Shown here piece after piece: positions 13,645-62,954 of a DNA stretch of 64,000 nt (its first letter is position 1; every line of letters begins with the position of its first letter). The stretch is from Hungatella effluvii (GTDB taxonomy: Bacteria > Bacillota > Clostridia > Lachnospirales > Lachnospiraceae), in the NCBI RefSeq assembly GCF_003201875.1, contig NZ_QJKD01000025.1, forward strand, positions 1 to 64,000, written 5' to 3'. The notes beneath the pieces were generated by a model. The model had not been told where the DNA came from, did no database searches, and saw only the letters and a program-made list of their open reading frames with translations. Made by a program: the position numbers and the translations under genes.

Positions 13645-13707
13645 ATAAAAATGACCGGGAGTGCCGGACACAGAATACATGTGTCCGGCACTCCCAGTCA
13701 TTTTTAT
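13645..13707. terminator. Very long bidirectional terminator hairpin
   Basis: Arms of 27 bp (13645-13671 and 13681-13707) with one mismatch enclose a 9-nt loop. Both outer ends are A/T runs (ataaaaatgac and gtcatttttat), so the hairpin ends in a U-tract on either strand. It lies 93 bp after the GH42 stop and separates that unit from the control region of the ABC/GH operon. Confidence 0.85.
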
Positions 13708-25980: not shown

Positions 25981-26080
25981 TGGCTCCACAAGGAATGGAG
26001 GAACATAAATGGCCTTCCATTGGGGAACTGTGAACTCTGGATTAGACTATTGTTTTTTATCTTAAGGAGCCAATACACAG

Positions 26081-26370
26081 CCAAAGAGCCTGAGGAGAGC
26101 AGGAAGGGGACGGGGGCAGACGAACAAAAGGGTTCCTTTTCCGAGGTTCGCAGGAAGTTAAGCAGAAAGACAGGAAAAAAGGGTGGTGAAATCTGGCCTC
26201 CAAGCCAGATTTCAAGTGGACACGGATGAGAAGTCCTTCAGGAGTTCTCCGTAGTTTGCACGATCCGCCCTTTTTTCCTGTCTTTCTGCTTTACTTCCTG
26301 CCACCGAGGAAACAAGAACCCTTTTGTTCGTCTGCCCCCGTCCCCCTCCTGCTCTCCTCAGGCTCTTTGG
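26081..26370. repeat. 290-bp hairpin element with 103-bp inverted arms
   Basis: Left arm 26081-26183 and right arm 26268-26370 match as inverted repeats over roughly 93 of 103 bp, with most mismatches in one internal block (about 26136-26150). The central 84 bp hold two further hairpins: gaaatctggc/gccagatttc (26188-26213), and an imperfect one at 26248-26269 of the form gagaa-tcc/gga-ttctc located at 26228... within the loop. No flanking direct repeat was found. It ends 18 bp before the DUF4097 stop. Confidence 0.7.
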
Positions 26371-26388
26371 CGTAGCATTCTCCCCCCA

Positions 26389-40365: not shown

Positions 40366-40368
40366 GAG

Positions 40369-40708
40369 TGGAGTAGACGGGATTTGAACCCGTGTCCAAA
40401 AACCAATTCCCTGTTCTTCTACTATCATAGTCAGTTATTTTACATTCCCTCTGTCACCCGAAAACTGACACCCTGGTGAGTTCAGTAGCTTCATCATACG
40501 CCCATATGCTCAAAGCTTTGCATAAGTCGTTTCTCACATCGTCGATGCCGGATTCTTAAGGTGTGAGTGCCCTAAGGCCGACAAGCAGCATTAAGCTGCC
40601 AGTGCTAATTCGTTATTGTTAGCGTTTATATTTAAGTTTGCCATTTAACGCATCGCATGCGGATAGCTTCACCAGCTGCATGACCCCTGTCGAAACCAGT
40701 ACTACCCC
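40369..40708 (-). ncRNA. ssrA: Transfer-messenger RNA (tmRNA)
   Basis: Ends were set by the tRNA-like acceptor stem: 5' GGGGTAG pairs with 3' CTACTCC, followed by discriminator A; CCA is not encoded. The T-arm ACGGGTTCAAATCCCGT and the 5' segment ACTGGTTTCGACAGGGG are diagnostic. The tag frame (40591-40641) reads ANLNINANNNELALAA then TAA. tmRNA rescues stalled ribosomes and tags nascent chains for proteolysis. A TTGACA-17-TAGTAT promoter precedes it. Confidence 0.97.
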
Positions 40709-40805: not shown

Positions 40806-41090
40806 ATCCCGTTCTCAGGCCCGCCGTCCTCGGCCTCCCGTTCGGCCACGGCTGGCTCCTGCGCCCTTTCCAGTGACTTTGCAGGGTATTAGCAATTCTT
40901 AACGCGCAGGATTTTTCGTTCAGGGGAAATGACCACCTGTCTGAGCGCAGCGAGTTTGGTCATTTTCTCTGGTTTTTAGAAAAATTCTGCACGTTTAGAA
41001 GTGCTTATGCCCGAAACTGGAACTGGAAAGGGCGCAGGAGCCAGCCGTGACCGAACGGGAGGCCGAGGACGGCGGGCCTGGGAACGGGAT
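40806..41090. repeat. 285-bp hairpin element, copy 1
   Basis: Outer arms 40806-40874 and 41022-41090 pair over 67 of 69 bp. The inner region (40866-41030) is homologous, in the opposite orientation, to 45083-45249 of copy 2, but the outer arms of the two copies differ almost completely in sequence. Inside the core further stems form: ttcttaacgcgcaggattttt with its near-complement, and aaatgacca/tggtcattt around a conserved tip containing ctgagcgcagcgagt. The element fills the gap between ssrA and the lipase-like gene, ending 9 bp from the latter's stop. No transposase is encoded. Confidence 0.8.
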
Positions 41091-41099
41091 CTGCTAATC

Positions 41100-42491
41100 C
41101 TAAAAACCTTTTTTTACCAGTTCTGAAACGATCTGGACATAGCATTCCACCACATCGAAGCCTTTATAATCTTCCCTTTTCAAGTCAATCATATCCCCGT
41201 GAGATATCCCGCGGTGGCCGCTGCTGGCAAACACGGTGCGGAATTCTCCCCAGCGGGCAGACTCCGTGCTCACCAGGCCGTCATTGTCCCCCTCCAGAGG
41301 CTTTATGAGGCAGTAGGGAATCCACAGCAGCGGATCGCTGAAACAGTCGCGCATCTTCGAAGCATAGCTCTGATAGAAGACACCGGACGCATCGGGAACC
41401 GACTCATTAAATGCTCTGCTGGACTCTGTGGAAAACTGATGGGTCGCGGTATAGAAATCCGGGTTCTTATCCCCAAACCGGGAAAATGTCCGGTCAAAGC
41501 ATTTGGCAACCAGACGGTATAAGCCTTCCGGTAAGCGGACGGCGTAGTCAACGAACCGGCATCCGTGATGCGGGGTACTGACTGTCGTAAGTGACGCCGT
41601 GTATGGCGCCATCCCCAGCTTGCTGATGGCATAGCGCGCATCCAGTCCGCCCTTTGAGTGTGCAATGATGTTGACCTTTTCACATCCGGTCTCCTTCACC
41701 ACCTCCAGGATCTTCTTCCGAATGTCCTCTGCGTTGTAGGTAATGGTCCCCAGCGCCTCCTGATTGCCATAGTAGACGGTGGCCCCTAGCCGCGTCAGTT
41801 CCCGGGGAATTCTTCCCCAGTAGTTAAAGTAACGAAGGTCGCGGAAGCCGACTCCATGCACCATAATGAGCGGATACTTCGTCCGGCAGAGATTGGACTC
41901 CACGCGGGTCGACCGGACGGATTCCTTGTAGCAGGCAAAATCATACTCCGCCCGTACCAGTCTCATGGCATGGAGCAGCACAGCCAGATTGACAATCGGA
42001 ATCCACATGGCCAGCAGCATCAGGACCCGCATTCTCACGCGAAGACGCGCCGACGTAAGATACATCCTCAGAATTCCATTCCACAGAAGAACCAGAAGAG
42101 CCGCTGCCGCAAATACCATATTGCCGATCAGGACACCCACCGGCCATTCCGCTGTCTCAGCGCTGCCGCTGAGCAGACGGGGATATAGGACAAATGCAAT
42201 CAGGCACTGTGCCAGAATTCCGTAAATCGCAGCAAATCCAAGAGTCCGTCCACCGCGCATGATAACGAGACGCAGCTTTGCATGGTTCTTGTCATGGTAC
42301 GGTCTTATATTAAAATAAAGCCAGCAAATGCTTAAGAGAATGGCCCCAACAACTGCCGCTGCGGGCTGTGCCGGTATCGTCCCTTCCATGAGGCGTCCGG
42401 TAAATAAGCCGTACACAAGCAGCGGAAGATTCGATACCGCCGCAATCATAAGCGCCAGATACAGCTTCCTTAATAATCTTTTTGCCTTCAT
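41100..42491 (-). CDS. Membrane-anchored alpha/beta hydrolase (lipase-like)
   Basis: The 463-aa protein has about six hydrophobic helices in its first 180 residues, then an alpha/beta-hydrolase domain with the oxyanion-hole start PLIMVHGVGFRDLRYFNYWG (207-226), nucleophile S279 in IIAHSKGGLDARY, and STPHHGCRF. The C-terminal SSGHRGISHGDM probably supplies the catalytic histidine. It resembles bacterial class I/II lipases in this domain. The multi-helix N-terminal module is unusual and suggests action at the membrane. Function is inferred. Confidence 0.75.
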   Translation of the reverse strand: MKAKRLLRKLYLALMIAAVSNLPLLVYGLFTGRLMEGTIPAQPAAAVVGAILLSICWLYFNIRPYHDKNHAKLRLVIMRGGRTLGFAAIYGILAQCLIAFVLYPRLLSGSAETAEWPVGVLIGNMVFAAAALLVLLWNGILRMYLTSARLRVRMRVLMLLAMWIPIVNLAVLLHAMRLVRAEYDFACYKESVRSTRVESNLCRTKYPLIMVHGVGFRDLRYFNYWGRIPRELTRLGATVYYGNQEALGTITYNAEDIRKKILEVVKETGCEKVNIIAHSKGGLDARYAISKLGMAPYTASLTTVSTPHHGCRFVDYAVRLPEGLYRLVAKCFDRTFSRFGDKNPDFYTATHQFSTESSRAFNESVPDASGVFYQSYASKMRDCFSDPLLWIPYCLIKPLEGDNDGLVSTESARWGEFRTVFASSGHRGISHGDMIDLKREDYKGFDVVECYVQIVSELVKKGF

Positions 42492-42552
42492 GAGTTTACT
42501 CCCCTCTGTCTTCTTCTGTTATCCGCCGATGATTCCCACTGATACCTGCTTT

Positions 42553-43545
42553 CTAACGTTCTTCTCCGTATCCGCGGCCCTCTTGAATATCCAGATCCCG
42601 GAACAGCGAGGCGACGGCAGCTTCATACTCCGCGGCCCGCTCCGCCTTGCGAATCTTCTTTCCGTATTTTTCCGATCCTGGAAACAGAAACAGCAGGTAA
42701 AACCAGAGTTCCTTCATCTTAAACAGGACATTCCGGTTGCCGGATATGGTCTCCCGGTAACCCTGGTAAATCATATCGTGAAATTCCTTAATCCGGCCTT
42801 TGTCCGGAAAACCGAATCCCTTAATCTCACCAGCCAGTCCGGGATTTGCGATCAGGCCCCGGCCCAGCATAATACAGTCCACCTCCGGAAATCCGGCGTG
42901 GAACTCCTCCCAGTCCCCGGGAGTAAAGATGTCTCCATTGTACCATACCTCATTTCTGCTGGCTTTCAGAGCCTTTTGAAATGCGGCGCGGTCAGGCGTA
43001 CTCTTATAGAAATCACTTCTCACCCGCGGATGGATTATCAATTCTTTTAAGGGATATTTATTGTAAATTTCAAGGAGTTCCTCAAATTCATCCGGCGATG
43101 CCATTCCCAGCCTTGTTTTTACGGAAAGACGGATATGGATTCCCGCACATACCTCATCAAGAAATGCATCCAGCGCTTCCTTTTTCGCCAGAAAACCGGC
43201 TCCCTTATATTTCGTAACCACCGTTCCGGACGGACATCCCAGATTTAAATTCACCTCGTCATACCCCAGCGCCTCAAGCTCACCCGCCATCCAGATAAAG
43301 TCTTCCGCACGGTTTGTGAGAATCTGAGGAATCAGGGTAATTCCTTTGTTATGTTCCGGAAGCACATCATTTCGCTCTCTCGAAGCGAAGCGGTGATTCT
43401 GGTTCGGCTGTAAAAATGGAGTAAAATACCGGTCCACATGGGGAAACAGCGCGTGATGGGCGCTCCGGTATACATAGCCTGTAATCCCCTCCATCGGGGC
43501 AAAACAGCAGCATGGTTCCTTATGATCTTCTCTCTTTTCAATCAC
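42553..43545 (-). CDS. tRNA-dihydrouridine synthase family protein
   Basis: The 330-aa TIM-barrel flavoprotein starts CFAPMEGITGYVYRSAHH. It contains EVNLNLGCPSGTVVTKYKGAG (catalytic Cys in NLGCP), SVKTRLG, ELIIHPRVRSDFYK and NGDIFTPGDW, plus MLGRGLIANPGLAGEIKG. Dus enzymes reduce uridines in tRNA. The start is a GTG at 43545 overlapping the MATE gene by 8 bp. Which tRNA site it modifies is not visible. Confidence 0.92.
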   Translation of the reverse strand: MIEKREDHKEPCCCFAPMEGITGYVYRSAHHALFPHVDRYFTPFLQPNQNHRFASRERNDVLPEHNKGITLIPQILTNRAEDFIWMAGELEALGYDEVNLNLGCPSGTVVTKYKGAGFLAKKEALDAFLDEVCAGIHIRLSVKTRLGMASPDEFEELLEIYNKYPLKELIIHPRVRSDFYKSTPDRAAFQKALKASRNEVWYNGDIFTPGDWEEFHAGFPEVDCIMLGRGLIANPGLAGEIKGFGFPDKGRIKEFHDMIYQGYRETISGNRNVLFKMKELWFYLLFLFPGSEKYGKKIRKAERAAEYEAAVASLFRDLDIQEGRGYGEER

Positions 43546-44896
43546 CAGACTCGTCTCCGCCTTTCAATCCTTTTATTCTCACAAAATAGCTGACGACCAG
43601 CACCACATCCGCGCCGATCCAGGCCAGGATCTCTGCATAAAAAATGCCCTCCTGCCCGAAGGCCCGCGGTAGAAACAGCGCAGCTCCCGTTCTCATTAAA
43701 AATTCCACCACGCCGGACAGCATGGGCAGAACTGTATCTCCCATCCCCTGGATGGATGAGCGAACCACGTGAAGCAGGTAAAGGATAGGGAGACAGACGC
43801 TCATGATTGCCAGATAATGGTAGGCGATTTCCATAGTCCTGGCCGCCTCTTCGGGTGTTCCCGTGATGAAGCATCCGAGAATCGCCTGCCCGAAGACCAG
43901 CATCACGGCCGCGATCACAGCCGAGGTGAGCATGGCTAAGAGAAGCCCTGATTTCATCCCCTGCCTGATGCGCCTGATCTTTCCGGCGCCCAGATTCTGG
44001 CCCACATAAGTAGTCATGGCATAGCCATAGGAGGTCGCGGCGATCTCCAGCAGTCCATACAGCTTGTTGGTCGCCGTAAATCCAGCGATGAAGAGAACTC
44101 CGAATCCATTGACCACCGACTGCACAATCATACCGCCCACAGCGATGATTCCATTCTGGAATGCCATGGGAATTCCCAGGGTCATCAGCTTTCTGCAAAG
44201 ATACGGTTCCAGGTGAAAATCCTTCTTTTCAAATGAAAGAATCGACACCTTTAACAGGCTCTTTAAACAGTATAAACTGGAGCAGGCCTGCGCGATCAGC
44301 GTGGCCGCGGCCGCACCGCCGATCCCCCAGTGAAAGACAAGTACAAACAGCAGGTCCAGGCCGATGTTGACCGCGGATGCCACCACCATAGCGTGGAGCG
44401 GTGTTTTCCCGTCTCCCATGGCCCGAAGGATGGAGGCCAGAACATTATATGCCATCACAATGGGAATTCCCCAGAACATGATCCTTAAATACAAAAGACT
44501 CCGCCCGATGATTTCATCCGGCGTATTCAAAAGCAGCAGGACCGGCCGCGCGGCCGCCTGCATGAGAGCTAACATGACCACGGATCCAAGACAGGCCAGA
44601 ATCGCCGAATTTGCGATTACCTGCCGAAGCTTTCTGTAATCTCCAGCCCCGAATTCGTAGGCCATCAGTATGGCAAATCCCTGGGATATGCCCTGAATCA
44701 TCCCCAACACCATCCAGTTCAGCCAGTCCGCGGCCCCCAGCGCAGCCAACGCGCCGACGCCCAGGGCCTGACCAACCACCATGGTGTCCACCACGGTATA
44801 AAACTGCTGAAATACATTGCCAAACATCAGAGGCAGTGAAAACGCGAAAATAAGCTTCAGCGGATGCCCCTCCGTCATTGTCCTAATTTTGGCCAT
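43538..44896 (-). CDS. MATE-family efflux transporter
   Basis: The ATG at 44896 behind AGGAGA gives 452 aa with twelve predicted helices in two repeats (MTEGHPLKLIFAFSLPLMFGN; VVDTMVVGQALGVGALAALG). MATE proteins export cationic drugs or metabolites using Na+ or H+ gradients. Translational overlap with the dus gene downstream implies an operon, a chance pairing as far as function goes. Confidence 0.93.
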   Translation of the reverse strand: MAKIRTMTEGHPLKLIFAFSLPLMFGNVFQQFYTVVDTMVVGQALGVGALAALGAADWLNWMVLGMIQGISQGFAILMAYEFGAGDYRKLRQVIANSAILACLGSVVMLALMQAAARPVLLLLNTPDEIIGRSLLYLRIMFWGIPIVMAYNVLASILRAMGDGKTPLHAMVVASAVNIGLDLLFVLVFHWGIGGAAAATLIAQACSSLYCLKSLLKVSILSFEKKDFHLEPYLCRKLMTLGIPMAFQNGIIAVGGMIVQSVVNGFGVLFIAGFTATNKLYGLLEIAATSYGYAMTTYVGQNLGAGKIRRIRQGMKSGLLLAMLTSAVIAAVMLVFGQAILGCFITGTPEEAARTMEIAYHYLAIMSVCLPILYLLHVVRSSIQGMGDTVLPMLSGVVEFLMRTGAALFLPRAFGQEGIFYAEILAWIGADVVLVVSYFVRIKGLKGGDESGD

Positions 44897-45013
44897 TTTA
44901 ATTTTCTCCTGATTTCTTTTTCCTTTTATCAATACCGTATATTTCCAGAATGATTATAACCTGTCAAGGCAAAAAGTGCAATCCGATTCCGGAAAGTGTC
45001 CGGCCGGAGGGCG

Positions 45014-45318
45014 AAGCGGACGTTACAATTCACTCCCCACCAGGGGCACCGCAGTCCGGTTCGGCCGGGCAGGCTTCCTCAGCCTTTCCAGTTCCGGTTT
45101 CGGGCATAAGAAGTTCTAAACGTGCAGAATTTTTCTAAAAACCAGGTGAAAATCCCAAACTCGCTGCGCTCAGACAAGTGGGAATTTCACCTGAACGAAA
45201 AATTTTGCGCGTTAAGAACTTCTAATACCCTGCAAAGTCACCGGAAAGACTGAGGAAGCCTGCCCGGCCGAACCGGACTGCGGTGCCCCTGGTGGGGAGT
45301 GAATTGTAACAAGCGGAC
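45014..45318. repeat. Hairpin element, copy 2, with flanking 8-bp direct repeats
   Basis: The element 45022-45310 has outer arms of 68 bp (45022-45089 and 45243-45310) that pair with a single mismatch. Its core is homologous in inverted orientation to copy 1 at 40866-41030. The core stem reads ggtgaaaatccca/tgggaatttcacc here versus a different but again complementary pair in copy 1. Exactly abutting both ends is aagcggac (45014-45021 and 45311-45318), as expected of a target-site duplication. No protein is encoded. The rest of the gap 44897-45391 shows nothing else. Confidence 0.8.
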
Positions 45319-45391: not shown

Positions 45392-46954
45392 TTATGGGTG
45401 AAACTGTACCGGGGGCACGTCCGGTGTCAGGGGTTCCATCCGGTATTCCGGGAACTGATCAATCAGATCGTTCAAACAGAGTGCTGTGCTGTGGACAATG
45501 TCATGGGCCAGCATCACCACGTGTTTTCTTCCCAGCGCCGTCTCCCGGGCGTTCGCAATCAGTTCTTCCGGCTCGGATTTCTTTAATGCATCCTCCAGGC
45601 TGGCATTCCAATCGAAATAAATGAAGCCTCTGGCCGTCATCTCTTTGATAATATCCTGATATACCGGTTTATTGTATGCATTAATGCTTCCGCCCGGAAA
45701 ACGAAAGAGCGTTACTCTCACTCCGGTCACTTCAAGCACAGTTTTGTAGGCCTCGTTGAAATCTTCAAGATAGCTGGCTGTGCTTTGATAAATCTGCTCG
45801 TAATCATGGCGGTTGCAGTGGATTCCAATGGTATGGCCTTCCGCTGTGATCCGCTTTGCCACCTCCGGATTTTTCCTGACGTTTTCGCCTACCAGGAAAA
45901 ATGTCGCCTTTATGTTCCGGGCTTTCAGCACATCCAGAACGGCGGCGGTATTTTCCGCAGAAGGCCCGTCATCAAAGGTTAAATACATGGTTTTGGGGTG
46001 GAAGAAGGCGTCGATCCCTCCCGCAATGCCCTCCGCCAGCTTCTCCTGATATTCCGCCTGGGTAAGCTTTCCGCGTTCCTCCGGGCTGGACAGGAAACCG
46101 GTCTCGATCAGGCACGCAGGCATCTTCGTCCAGCCTGTCACCACAAAACCCGCGTCGCCCCGCAGTTCCCTCTCCTTGGCTCCAGTACGCTTCACCGTTT
46201 CCTCATGAATCAGGAGAGCCAGCCGCCTGCTGTCACGGGAGGGGTCCGTTCCGTCGTACCACGTCTCGATTCCGGTTGGCTCTTCCTCTTCATACGTATT
46301 CTGATGAATGCTCACAAAGGCATTGGCACCATAGCGGTTCGCCGCTTCCGCCCGCTGCTCCTTCGTCATATAGGTATCAGTTTCCCGGGTCAGAATCACC
46401 CTGTAGCCCGATTCCACCAGCTCCTCCCGAAGCTTCTTTGCGATTTCCAGATTGATGTCCTTTTCCAGTACCCCGTCTGCGTAACAGCCCTCATCGGTCC
46501 CTCCGTGGCCCGGATCTACTATAATAAGCGGATGTTCCGGGTCGCTATCTGTGGTTTGGAAAACTGTTTGTTTCTCCGTCCTGCTCTGTACATCAGTTTC
46601 CTGCCATGTGCTGCTTCTATCCTTCTTGCCTGCTGCCTCCAACTGGTATTCTGCTAATTTTCTTATTTCCGATGCCGGCAGAGTCTGTAATACTGCCGGA
46701 TTCATGGCTGCCGCCTGGCTCTCAGTTACTGGTAGATTCGCCGCTGCCGCCTGGCTCCCGGTCGCCGCCTGCGCCTCAGCCGTTACCGGGCTCACCGCCG
46801 CATTACCTCCCGGAAACATCCCCATCGTCTCCATTGCAGTAAACAGAAACACAGCCGCAATTCCGCCAGCCGCTGCCGCAGCACAATCCTCCAGCCATCT
46901 TCTTCTCGTATTTCTCCCGTTTTTTCTGCAACGGGTTTCTCGTTCGTATCTCAT
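45392..46954 (-). CDS. Fused N-acetylmuramoyl-L-alanine amidase / polysaccharide deacetylase
   Basis: The ATG at 46954 behind GGGAGGAG gives 520 aa. An N-terminal membrane helix (about 24-45) is followed by an Ala/Thr-rich linker. Amidase_3 domain (about 142-318): H150 in DPGHGG, E164, H217 in SIHQN, and E284 in LIETGF are the zinc and catalytic residues. NodB deacetylase domain (about 320-510): TFDDG (D328, D329) and H379-CNR-H383. Both act on cell-wall glycan or peptide bonds outside the membrane. All catalytic residues I can check are present in both halves. Confidence 0.9.
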   Translation of the reverse strand: MRYERETRCRKNGRNTRRRWLEDCAAAAAGGIAAVFLFTAMETMGMFPGGNAAVSPVTAEAQAATGSQAAAANLPVTESQAAAMNPAVLQTLPASEIRKLAEYQLEAAGKKDRSSTWQETDVQSRTEKQTVFQTTDSDPEHPLIIVDPGHGGTDEGCYADGVLEKDINLEIAKKLREELVESGYRVILTRETDTYMTKEQRAEAANRYGANAFVSIHQNTYEEEEPTGIETWYDGTDPSRDSRRLALLIHEETVKRTGAKERELRGDAGFVVTGWTKMPACLIETGFLSSPEERGKLTQAEYQEKLAEGIAGGIDAFFHPKTMYLTFDDGPSAENTAAVLDVLKARNIKATFFLVGENVRKNPEVAKRITAEGHTIGIHCNRHDYEQIYQSTASYLEDFNEAYKTVLEVTGVRVTLFRFPGGSINAYNKPVYQDIIKEMTARGFIYFDWNASLEDALKKSEPEELIANARETALGRKHVVMLAHDIVHSTALCLNDLIDQFPEYRMEPLTPDVPPVQFHP

Positions 46955-47034
46955 TGTACAGCTCCTCCCTCGCCAGGGCATGTTTGAAAATTCATTTCTG
47001 CCGTCTGCACGCCCTGCGAAACCGATCCGGAAGG

Positions 47035-47153
47035 CTTTTGTGCAGTCAAACACCTGCCGCAGCCAGCGGCACATTAAAATGTCCCTTTCTGCTGCACAAA
47101 AGCTCCTGTGTCATCCGTCTCAATATTCATTGATTCCAGATTACACAGGAGCT
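47035..47153. other. Two adjacent inverted repeats in the 46955-47189 gap
   Basis: Arms cttttgtgcag (47035-47045) and ctgcacaaaag (47092-47102), and agctcctgtgt (47101-47111) and acacaggagct (47143-47153), share their junction. On the minus strand the second hairpin precedes a short T run and may end the upstream four-gene operon; the first could be a control site for the amidase gene. Confidence 0.45.

Positions 47154-61316: not shown

Positions 61317-62954
<1,638 letters not shown>

Follow-up and report, generated by a model that had tools for sequence, protein, structure and literature searches.

How can the two arms of a long hairpin change from copy to copy while staying complementary within each copy? 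Two such hairpins lie in mutually opposite orientation at 40806-41090 (plus strand) and 45022-45310 (minus strand) of the 64,000-nucleotide stretch of Hungatella effluvii DNA analysed here (contig NZ_QJKD01000025.1, positions 1 to 64,000; hereafter the window). A sequence-only reading had described both and proposed either selection on structure or hairpin-templated repair; our results favor the first for the core of the hairpin and the second for its outer arms. Beyond what that reading saw, we found that the whole unit is a mobile element of ~289 bp, present in ~60 copies in this genome and flanked by 8-bp target duplications. We consider it probable that this is a non-autonomous element resembling a miniature inverted-repeat transposable element (MITE), whose arms are recopied by template switching and whose core is under selection for its fold.

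The hairpins are copies of a mobile element

Searching the genome of the window (6.86 Mb in 49 contigs) with the first hairpin (copy 1) identified at least 40 distinct places (40 of 79 candidates were scored), and a scan with the pattern of the hairpin tip, allowing up to three mismatches, gave 58 matches compared to 5 for the reversed control. In the stretches that we fetched, the core matched 73 times, with 63 matches in the genome of the window (G000) and 10 in Hungatella hathewayi DSM 13479 (G001), and a pattern scan of Genome Taxonomy Database (GTDB) records found the core also in Clostridium sp. chh4-2. The remaining matches to the inner motif in GTDB records, and two in viral contigs, were chance-like. 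Our working alignment holds 102 copies (63, 10, and 29 from the three genomes, respectively). Matches below 150 bits (including L109), copies cut at the end of a locus, and duplicate H. hathewayi loci were left out, and G001 and CP102274.1, which contain the same elements (L118/L181, L121/L127), were treated as one genome.

The element has inverted ends, GTWACAGTTCA; individual ends have the sequence GTTACAGTTCAC or GTAACAGTTCAG, and an 8-bp direct repeat lies next to each. The two repeats differ by no more than one base in 48 of the 73 copies, compared to 3, 3, 2, 2, and 5 of 73 after right flanks had been exchanged among copies, and they are exact in 30. Both ends and duplications are shared by elements that have other interiors, namely a 151-bp form (type B) and minis of 36-91 bp. 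Together, these observations are strong evidence, and we conclude that the element is mobile. Because it makes an 8-bp duplication on insertion, a transposase probably moves it in trans.

IS66 elements have GTAA ends and make 8-bp duplications. We rejected IS66 as the driver because the ends of the resident L207 (GTAATCGCCAAGTATTAGGGTG / GTAAGCGCCAAGTATCAGGGTG) do not match those of the element; this comparison rests on L207, the one resident copy among three IS66 matches whose ends could be recognised. Matches to Y1_Tnp were broken or fragmented at three places in G000 (L322, L324, L326) and were open frames of 166 aa at three places in G001 (L321, L323, L325).

Several variants were seen alongside the standard element. 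Type B members (~151 bp or deletion derivatives; window 62865-62945, L087, L184, L189, L196, L211, L214, L218, and L221) also have stems that differ on both sides between copies. Three copies from two species (L075, L083, L121) contain ~36 additional bp at one shared position of the core and may represent an older core. In the chh4-2 draft, L128, L130, L132, L133, L151, L161, and L172 show only 42-46 bp of core, and these short copies lie partly near locus ends, as if the assembly breaks inside the hairpin.

The window copies differ by two-sided changes

The features of the two copies, and of a type B derivative in the same window, are as follows.

40806-41090, plus strand: element copy 1; its ends have decayed from the consensus and a target duplication was not recognised
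40806-40874, plus strand: left arm of copy 1, with 67 of its 69 bases paired to the right arm
41022-41090, plus strand: right arm of copy 1
40870-41028, plus strand: core, 159 bp, used as search query; conserved among copies
40938-40956, plus strand: hairpin tip of copy 1, TGTCTGAGCGCAGCGAGTT, with apex GC-GCA-GC; conserved in other genera
45022-45310, minus strand: element copy 2, with ends GTTACAATTCAC
45022-45089, minus strand: 3' arm of copy 2, with 67 of its 68 bases paired to the 5' arm
45243-45310, minus strand: 5' arm of copy 2
45158-45176, minus strand: hairpin tip of copy 2
45014-45021: target duplication AAGCGGAC, left of copy 2
45311-45318: target duplication AAGCGGAC, right of copy 2
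62865-62945: 81-bp type B derivative with ends GTAACAGTTCAG and a different interior, flanked by GTATATTC at 62857-62864 and 62946-62953

Predicted DNA folding energies were –131.9 kcal/mol for copy 1 and –133.5 kcal/mol for copy 2, compared to means of –47.2 and –41 kcal/mol for shuffled sequences (z –22.89 and –22.84; 0 of 200 shuffles equally good). An inverted repeat (40850-41046 / 45068-45264, 84% complementary) joins the two hairpins, and neither contains an ORF of at least 80 aa. Much of the earlier description was borne out: the coordinates, the relative inversion, and the arm pairing counts were exact, the cores are identical at 140 of 158 columns of the 102-copy alignment, and one core stem (aaatgacca/tggtcattt) is replaced on both sides in copy 2 while the tip, ctgagcgcagcgagt, is constant. 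Its claim that the arms are unrelated did not hold. The arms are homologous and diverged, and nearly the arms of copy 2 recur in L063 and L065, and by the refuting condition that the sequence-only reading had itself set, the sharing of arms with further copies, arm sequences are those of subfamilies into which the copies group; copy 2 differs from L063 at 1 of 50 scored arm pairs. Between the two window copies, 25 of these 50 pairs are the same, 23 differ at both positions yet still pair, and 2 differ otherwise.

The inner arms are kept paired after insertion

Paired changes were already frequent among close relatives. Across 24 nearest-neighbor pairs with less than 10% arm divergence, we counted 42 paired and 25 one-sided changes, where independent mutation would give ~0.04 paired changes; for all pairs below 5% divergence, one-sided changes led (16 versus 11 paired). 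Double transversions, which have no route through a G-U pair, made up 70 of 181 paired changes among neighbors below 20% divergence. Tree parsimony assigned 279 two-sided changes to tip branches and 152 to inner branches, versus 103 and 38 one-sided losses of Watson–Crick pairing.

The target duplications provide a reference for these changes. Ends were recognisable in 91 of 101 copies, and in 75 the duplications differed by no more than two mismatches. In these 75 copies, mismatch was 7.7% in the duplications (46/600) and 7.2% in the outermost 11 bp of the arms (59/825; p = 0.76), and it fell to about a third of this value toward the core (7.2, 4.1, 2.4, 2.2, and 2.4% per 11-bp bin, going inward). 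Pooled over the bins 22-55 bp from the end, it was 2.3% (58/2475; p = 7e-9 versus the duplications); a sixth bin (9.4%) was not used because it touches fixed mismatches of the core. Arm mismatch did not rise with duplication mismatch (3.6, 5.0, 4.1, 3.8, and 3.2% for classes 0 to 4). Outermost arm mismatches were split evenly between G-T and A-C (21:22), as for neutral DNA. Because arms and duplications are both identical at the start, the inner arms have been kept paired after insertion, by correction or by selection.

The low-divergence paired changes, the double transversions, the better-kept inner pairing, and the 21:22 split all speak for templating. Hairpin-templated recopying fits this pattern better than stepwise compensation, and joint change of the arms within a copy is probably the recopying of one arm from the other. 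We conclude, with good confidence, that the arms are kept paired by hairpin-templated copying. Since the duplications act as a built-in neutral clock, the share of template switching in apparent compensation becomes directly testable.

The core follows a second regime

The 159-bp core has kept unpaired loops and mismatches, which would disappear if copying acted without restraint. Departures from Watson–Crick pairing in the core were G-U more often than A-C, with ratios of 53:17 for tip and 24:1 for inner branches. For the 43 core pairs, variants seen in at least two copies were G-U in 15 and A-C in 2, versus G-U in 11 and A-C in 12 for variants seen in exactly one copy. Lineages that spread thus behave as if the plus-strand fold were selected, while single-copy variants look neutral. 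The conserved loops, the preference for G-U over A-C, and covariation across 12 genomes (below) give good support for selection of the core as a single-strand fold. G-T is the mildest mismatch in single-stranded DNA (ssDNA), and therefore the G-U preference alone does not imply RNA; we lean weakly toward a core recognised as ssDNA during propagation rather than a host RNA. A functional structure is usually proved by covariation. Two regimes appear to coexist in the present molecule, with arms for which copying at the DNA level is the best explanation and a core whose changes resemble true fold selection.

The core resembles hairpins of many genera

Hairpins with the same loops or tip and other stems were found in MT837089 (filed as a phage) and in several genomes. 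Allowing up to one mismatch, the pattern TGTYTGAGCGMAGCGAGTTT is present in 29 of the family's 299 genomes (reversed control, 9 matches in 7 genomes), and 14 of 398 Bacillota genomes contain the 19-mer TGTYTGAGCGNAGCGAGTT exactly (reversed control, 0 among the matches listed). In a set of 15 hairpins from 12 genomes, chosen by eye for shared loops, 93.8% of cells were paired compared to 67.4 ± 1.3% in shuffles, and 34 of 42 pairs had changed on both sides. Stem covariation in this set had a score of 0.723 compared to 0.214 ± 0.018 for shuffles and 0.09-0.16 for slid partners.

A covariance model built from these 15 hairpins matched 39 of 391 Clostridia genomes, representing 31 of 223 genera. 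Because generic long hairpins (opposite strands of members) can reach 31-54 bits with this model, we verified the tip separately: a permissive pattern for its flanks was present in all 29 loci, one per genome, taken from the 38 other matched genomes. The apical loop in these loci was GNA in 19, GNNA in 3, and another sequence in 7. According to the part of PMC4686876 available to us, GNA and GNNA loops form extraordinarily stable DNA mini-hairpins, and their presence in 22 of 29 loci hints at ssDNA. Among 11 loci with short matches in other genomes, the tip was present in five (four in G011, one in G092) and absent in six.

Rfam 15 at its curated thresholds returned only the transfer-messenger RNA (tmRNA) in the window, with nothing on the hairpins, and three matches in 20 loci of other genera, none on a hairpin. 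A sub-threshold match of MIR7533 to copy 1 (90.5 bits, E 6.7e-19, gathering score 230) we read as the alignment of a generic long hairpin. Plasmid records gave no match, and phage records gave only MT837089, whose ORFs look bacterial by eye. Searches of open-access literature, by word and by motif string, listed nothing on the element or its tip. Three contigs of a virus collection (L258-L260) have the exact tip, L259 and L260 matching the model at 35.6 and 34.5 bits; our impression is that their flanks resemble Bacteroidota.

Outside Hungatella, outer arms vary from copy to copy and no common end was seen. In a crude scan, 9 of 52 rows (some places being represented by two rows) had a direct repeat of 6-8 nt close to the ends of the hairpin, at scattered offsets, and the wider family therefore need not share the mobility route of the element. 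This hairpin family is widespread in gut bacteria, has no Rfam match at threshold in these scans, and points to a mobile system. A bolder proposal, which we hold tentatively and at less than even chance, is that the core represents an ancient, uncatalogued hairpin family of Bacillota that acts as ssDNA through its GNA tip and loops, has genus-specific stems and self-templating arms, and is served by unrecognised machinery.

A model for the element and its alternatives

In the model that we favor, each copy would form a single long hairpin. A mutation in one arm would then be transferred to the other arm, or reverted, by template-switching DNA synthesis inside the hairpin (quasipalindrome correction), so that arm sequence could drift freely with complementarity preserved, and correction would be weaker at the outer end. 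In the core, the constant loops and tip and the preference for G-U over A-C would reflect a strand-specific, single-stranded fold selected in the lineages that spread. The ends, duplications, copy number, and graded arm pattern are observed directly; the transposase and the enzymatic route of copying are what we infer from them.

Could selection alone suffice? A functional hairpin, of RNA or DNA, might keep its arms paired by ordinary compensatory mutations without any copying between them. The conserved core loops and the stems that covary across genera fit such a hairpin, as does the lean of inner-arm mismatches toward G-T, and the spacers of REP doublet-forming hairpins (REPINs), in the text consulted from PMC3116915, likewise show compensatory changes. 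We nevertheless judge this explanation unlikely, because paired changes dominate already among very close copies, double transversions cannot pass through G-U, and strong selection would be needed at all ~60 scattered intergenic insertions over 60-odd base pairs free of sequence constraint. Still less probable, in our view, is that arms are renewed solely at transposition, by fill-in of a hairpin intermediate, and decay once resident. Each new copy would then begin with perfect arms, and the neutral look of one-sided core variants seen once would be expected; however, inner arms that started out as identical as the duplications have accumulated only about a third of their mismatches, and arm mismatch is flat across the duplication classes. 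We give a similarly small, marginally lower chance to insertion of the core into the tips of pre-existing palindromes, with the arms being the targets. The variable arms outside Hungatella, without a common end or consistent duplication, and the existence of arms-only hairpins of 72-91 bp would suit this, but Hungatella arms align, diverge gradually, and end in a common motif beside the 8-bp duplication, and the 81-bp L190 joins arms of unequal length, as after internal deletion (judged by eye).

Several observations weigh against recopied arms around a selected core. The duplication rate was measured after removing copies with more than two mismatches, and it becomes 10.3% when four are allowed. 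Inner-arm mismatches lean toward G-T over A-C (52:30, p = 0.02), and therefore some strand-specific selection may touch the arms too. Ten copies with at least five duplication mismatches have 12.5% arm mismatch; perhaps their ends were assigned wrongly, or they are old copies that have lost pairing. Copying in place was not seen on a shared insertion, as the sole candidate, L091/L180 (same gap and orientation in two species), is doubtful: L180 is closest to other chh4-2 copies, and we rejected the pair. Shared ancestry of the copies is ignored by the parsimony counts and by the base-wise tests, and the latter also take linked sites to be independent. A search for a parent transposon, as two inverted ends spaced 0.35-6 kb, found none at the 100 places listed of 116 in G000 or at 36 places in G001. 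Finally, tolerance of G-U suits RNA as well as ssDNA, and 7 of the 29 model-found loci have neither a GNA nor a GNNA loop.

Comparison with known systems

Like bacterial MITEs, the element is short, multicopy, and intergenic, with terminal inverted repeats, a target duplication of fixed length (here 8 bp), and no ORF of at least 80 aa in the window copies. Unlike them, it forms a single hairpin throughout, in which 66-bp arms change together around a conserved, folded core. Its nearest analogue is the REPINs, mobilised by REP-associated tyrosine transposases (RAYTs), which, as presented in the available text of PMC3116915, are likewise dispersed, extragenic, non-autonomous hairpins with compensatory changes on both sides. 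The architecture is reversed: REPINs keep their REP ends around a variable center, whereas this element keeps its core and varies its arms. It also makes 8-bp duplications, while the term "target site duplication" is absent from the main text of that paper.

Template switching perfects quasipalindromes in Escherichia coli (PMC7202029, in part) and has been proposed for RNA genes (PMC8794818, in part). As in our arms, synthesis on the wrong template perfects an inverted repeat and mimics compensation; in the sections of these sources used here, the process is known from reporters, hotspots, and RNA genes, whereas the present case comprises ~100 natural copies with a built-in clock. The apex GC-GNA-GC likewise matches the mini-hairpins of PMC4686876, as far as its consulted text describes them, although there the hairpin is a designed aptamer part and here it is the natural tip of a widespread hairpin with a putative role.

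Genomic placement and other hairpins

Copies in the genome of the window lie outside ORFs of at least 100 aa in 61 of 62 cases. By these crude ORF calls, the 61 intergenic copies occupy 42 same-direction, 16 diverging, and 3 converging gene gaps, and within the same-direction gaps 20 elements share the strand of the genes and 22 lie on the opposite one. The even orientation and the three converging gaps speak against a part in flanking transcripts and against a terminator function, a reading that we dropped as unsupported. The 20:22 ratio is also a hint toward ssDNA. A replication-strand bias was also rejected, as the 9:1 ratio in H. hathewayi (by GC skew) was accompanied by ratios of 39:24 (p = 0.08) and 14:15 in the others. 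In the window, copy 1 is flanked by the tmRNA gene (40368-40708, minus strand) and the 3' end of an ORF (41100-42491, minus strand), and copy 2 by two ORFs, 43538-44932 and 45392-47074 (both minus strand).

Two further hairpins lie in the window. One, at 26080-26371, is a long hairpin with 107-bp arms (90% complementary) and a different core that is repeated at 12 places in its own genome, itself included (E 3e-39 or better). The other, at 13645-13707, is short and near-perfect, with 28-bp arms (96% complementary), and is perhaps a terminator.

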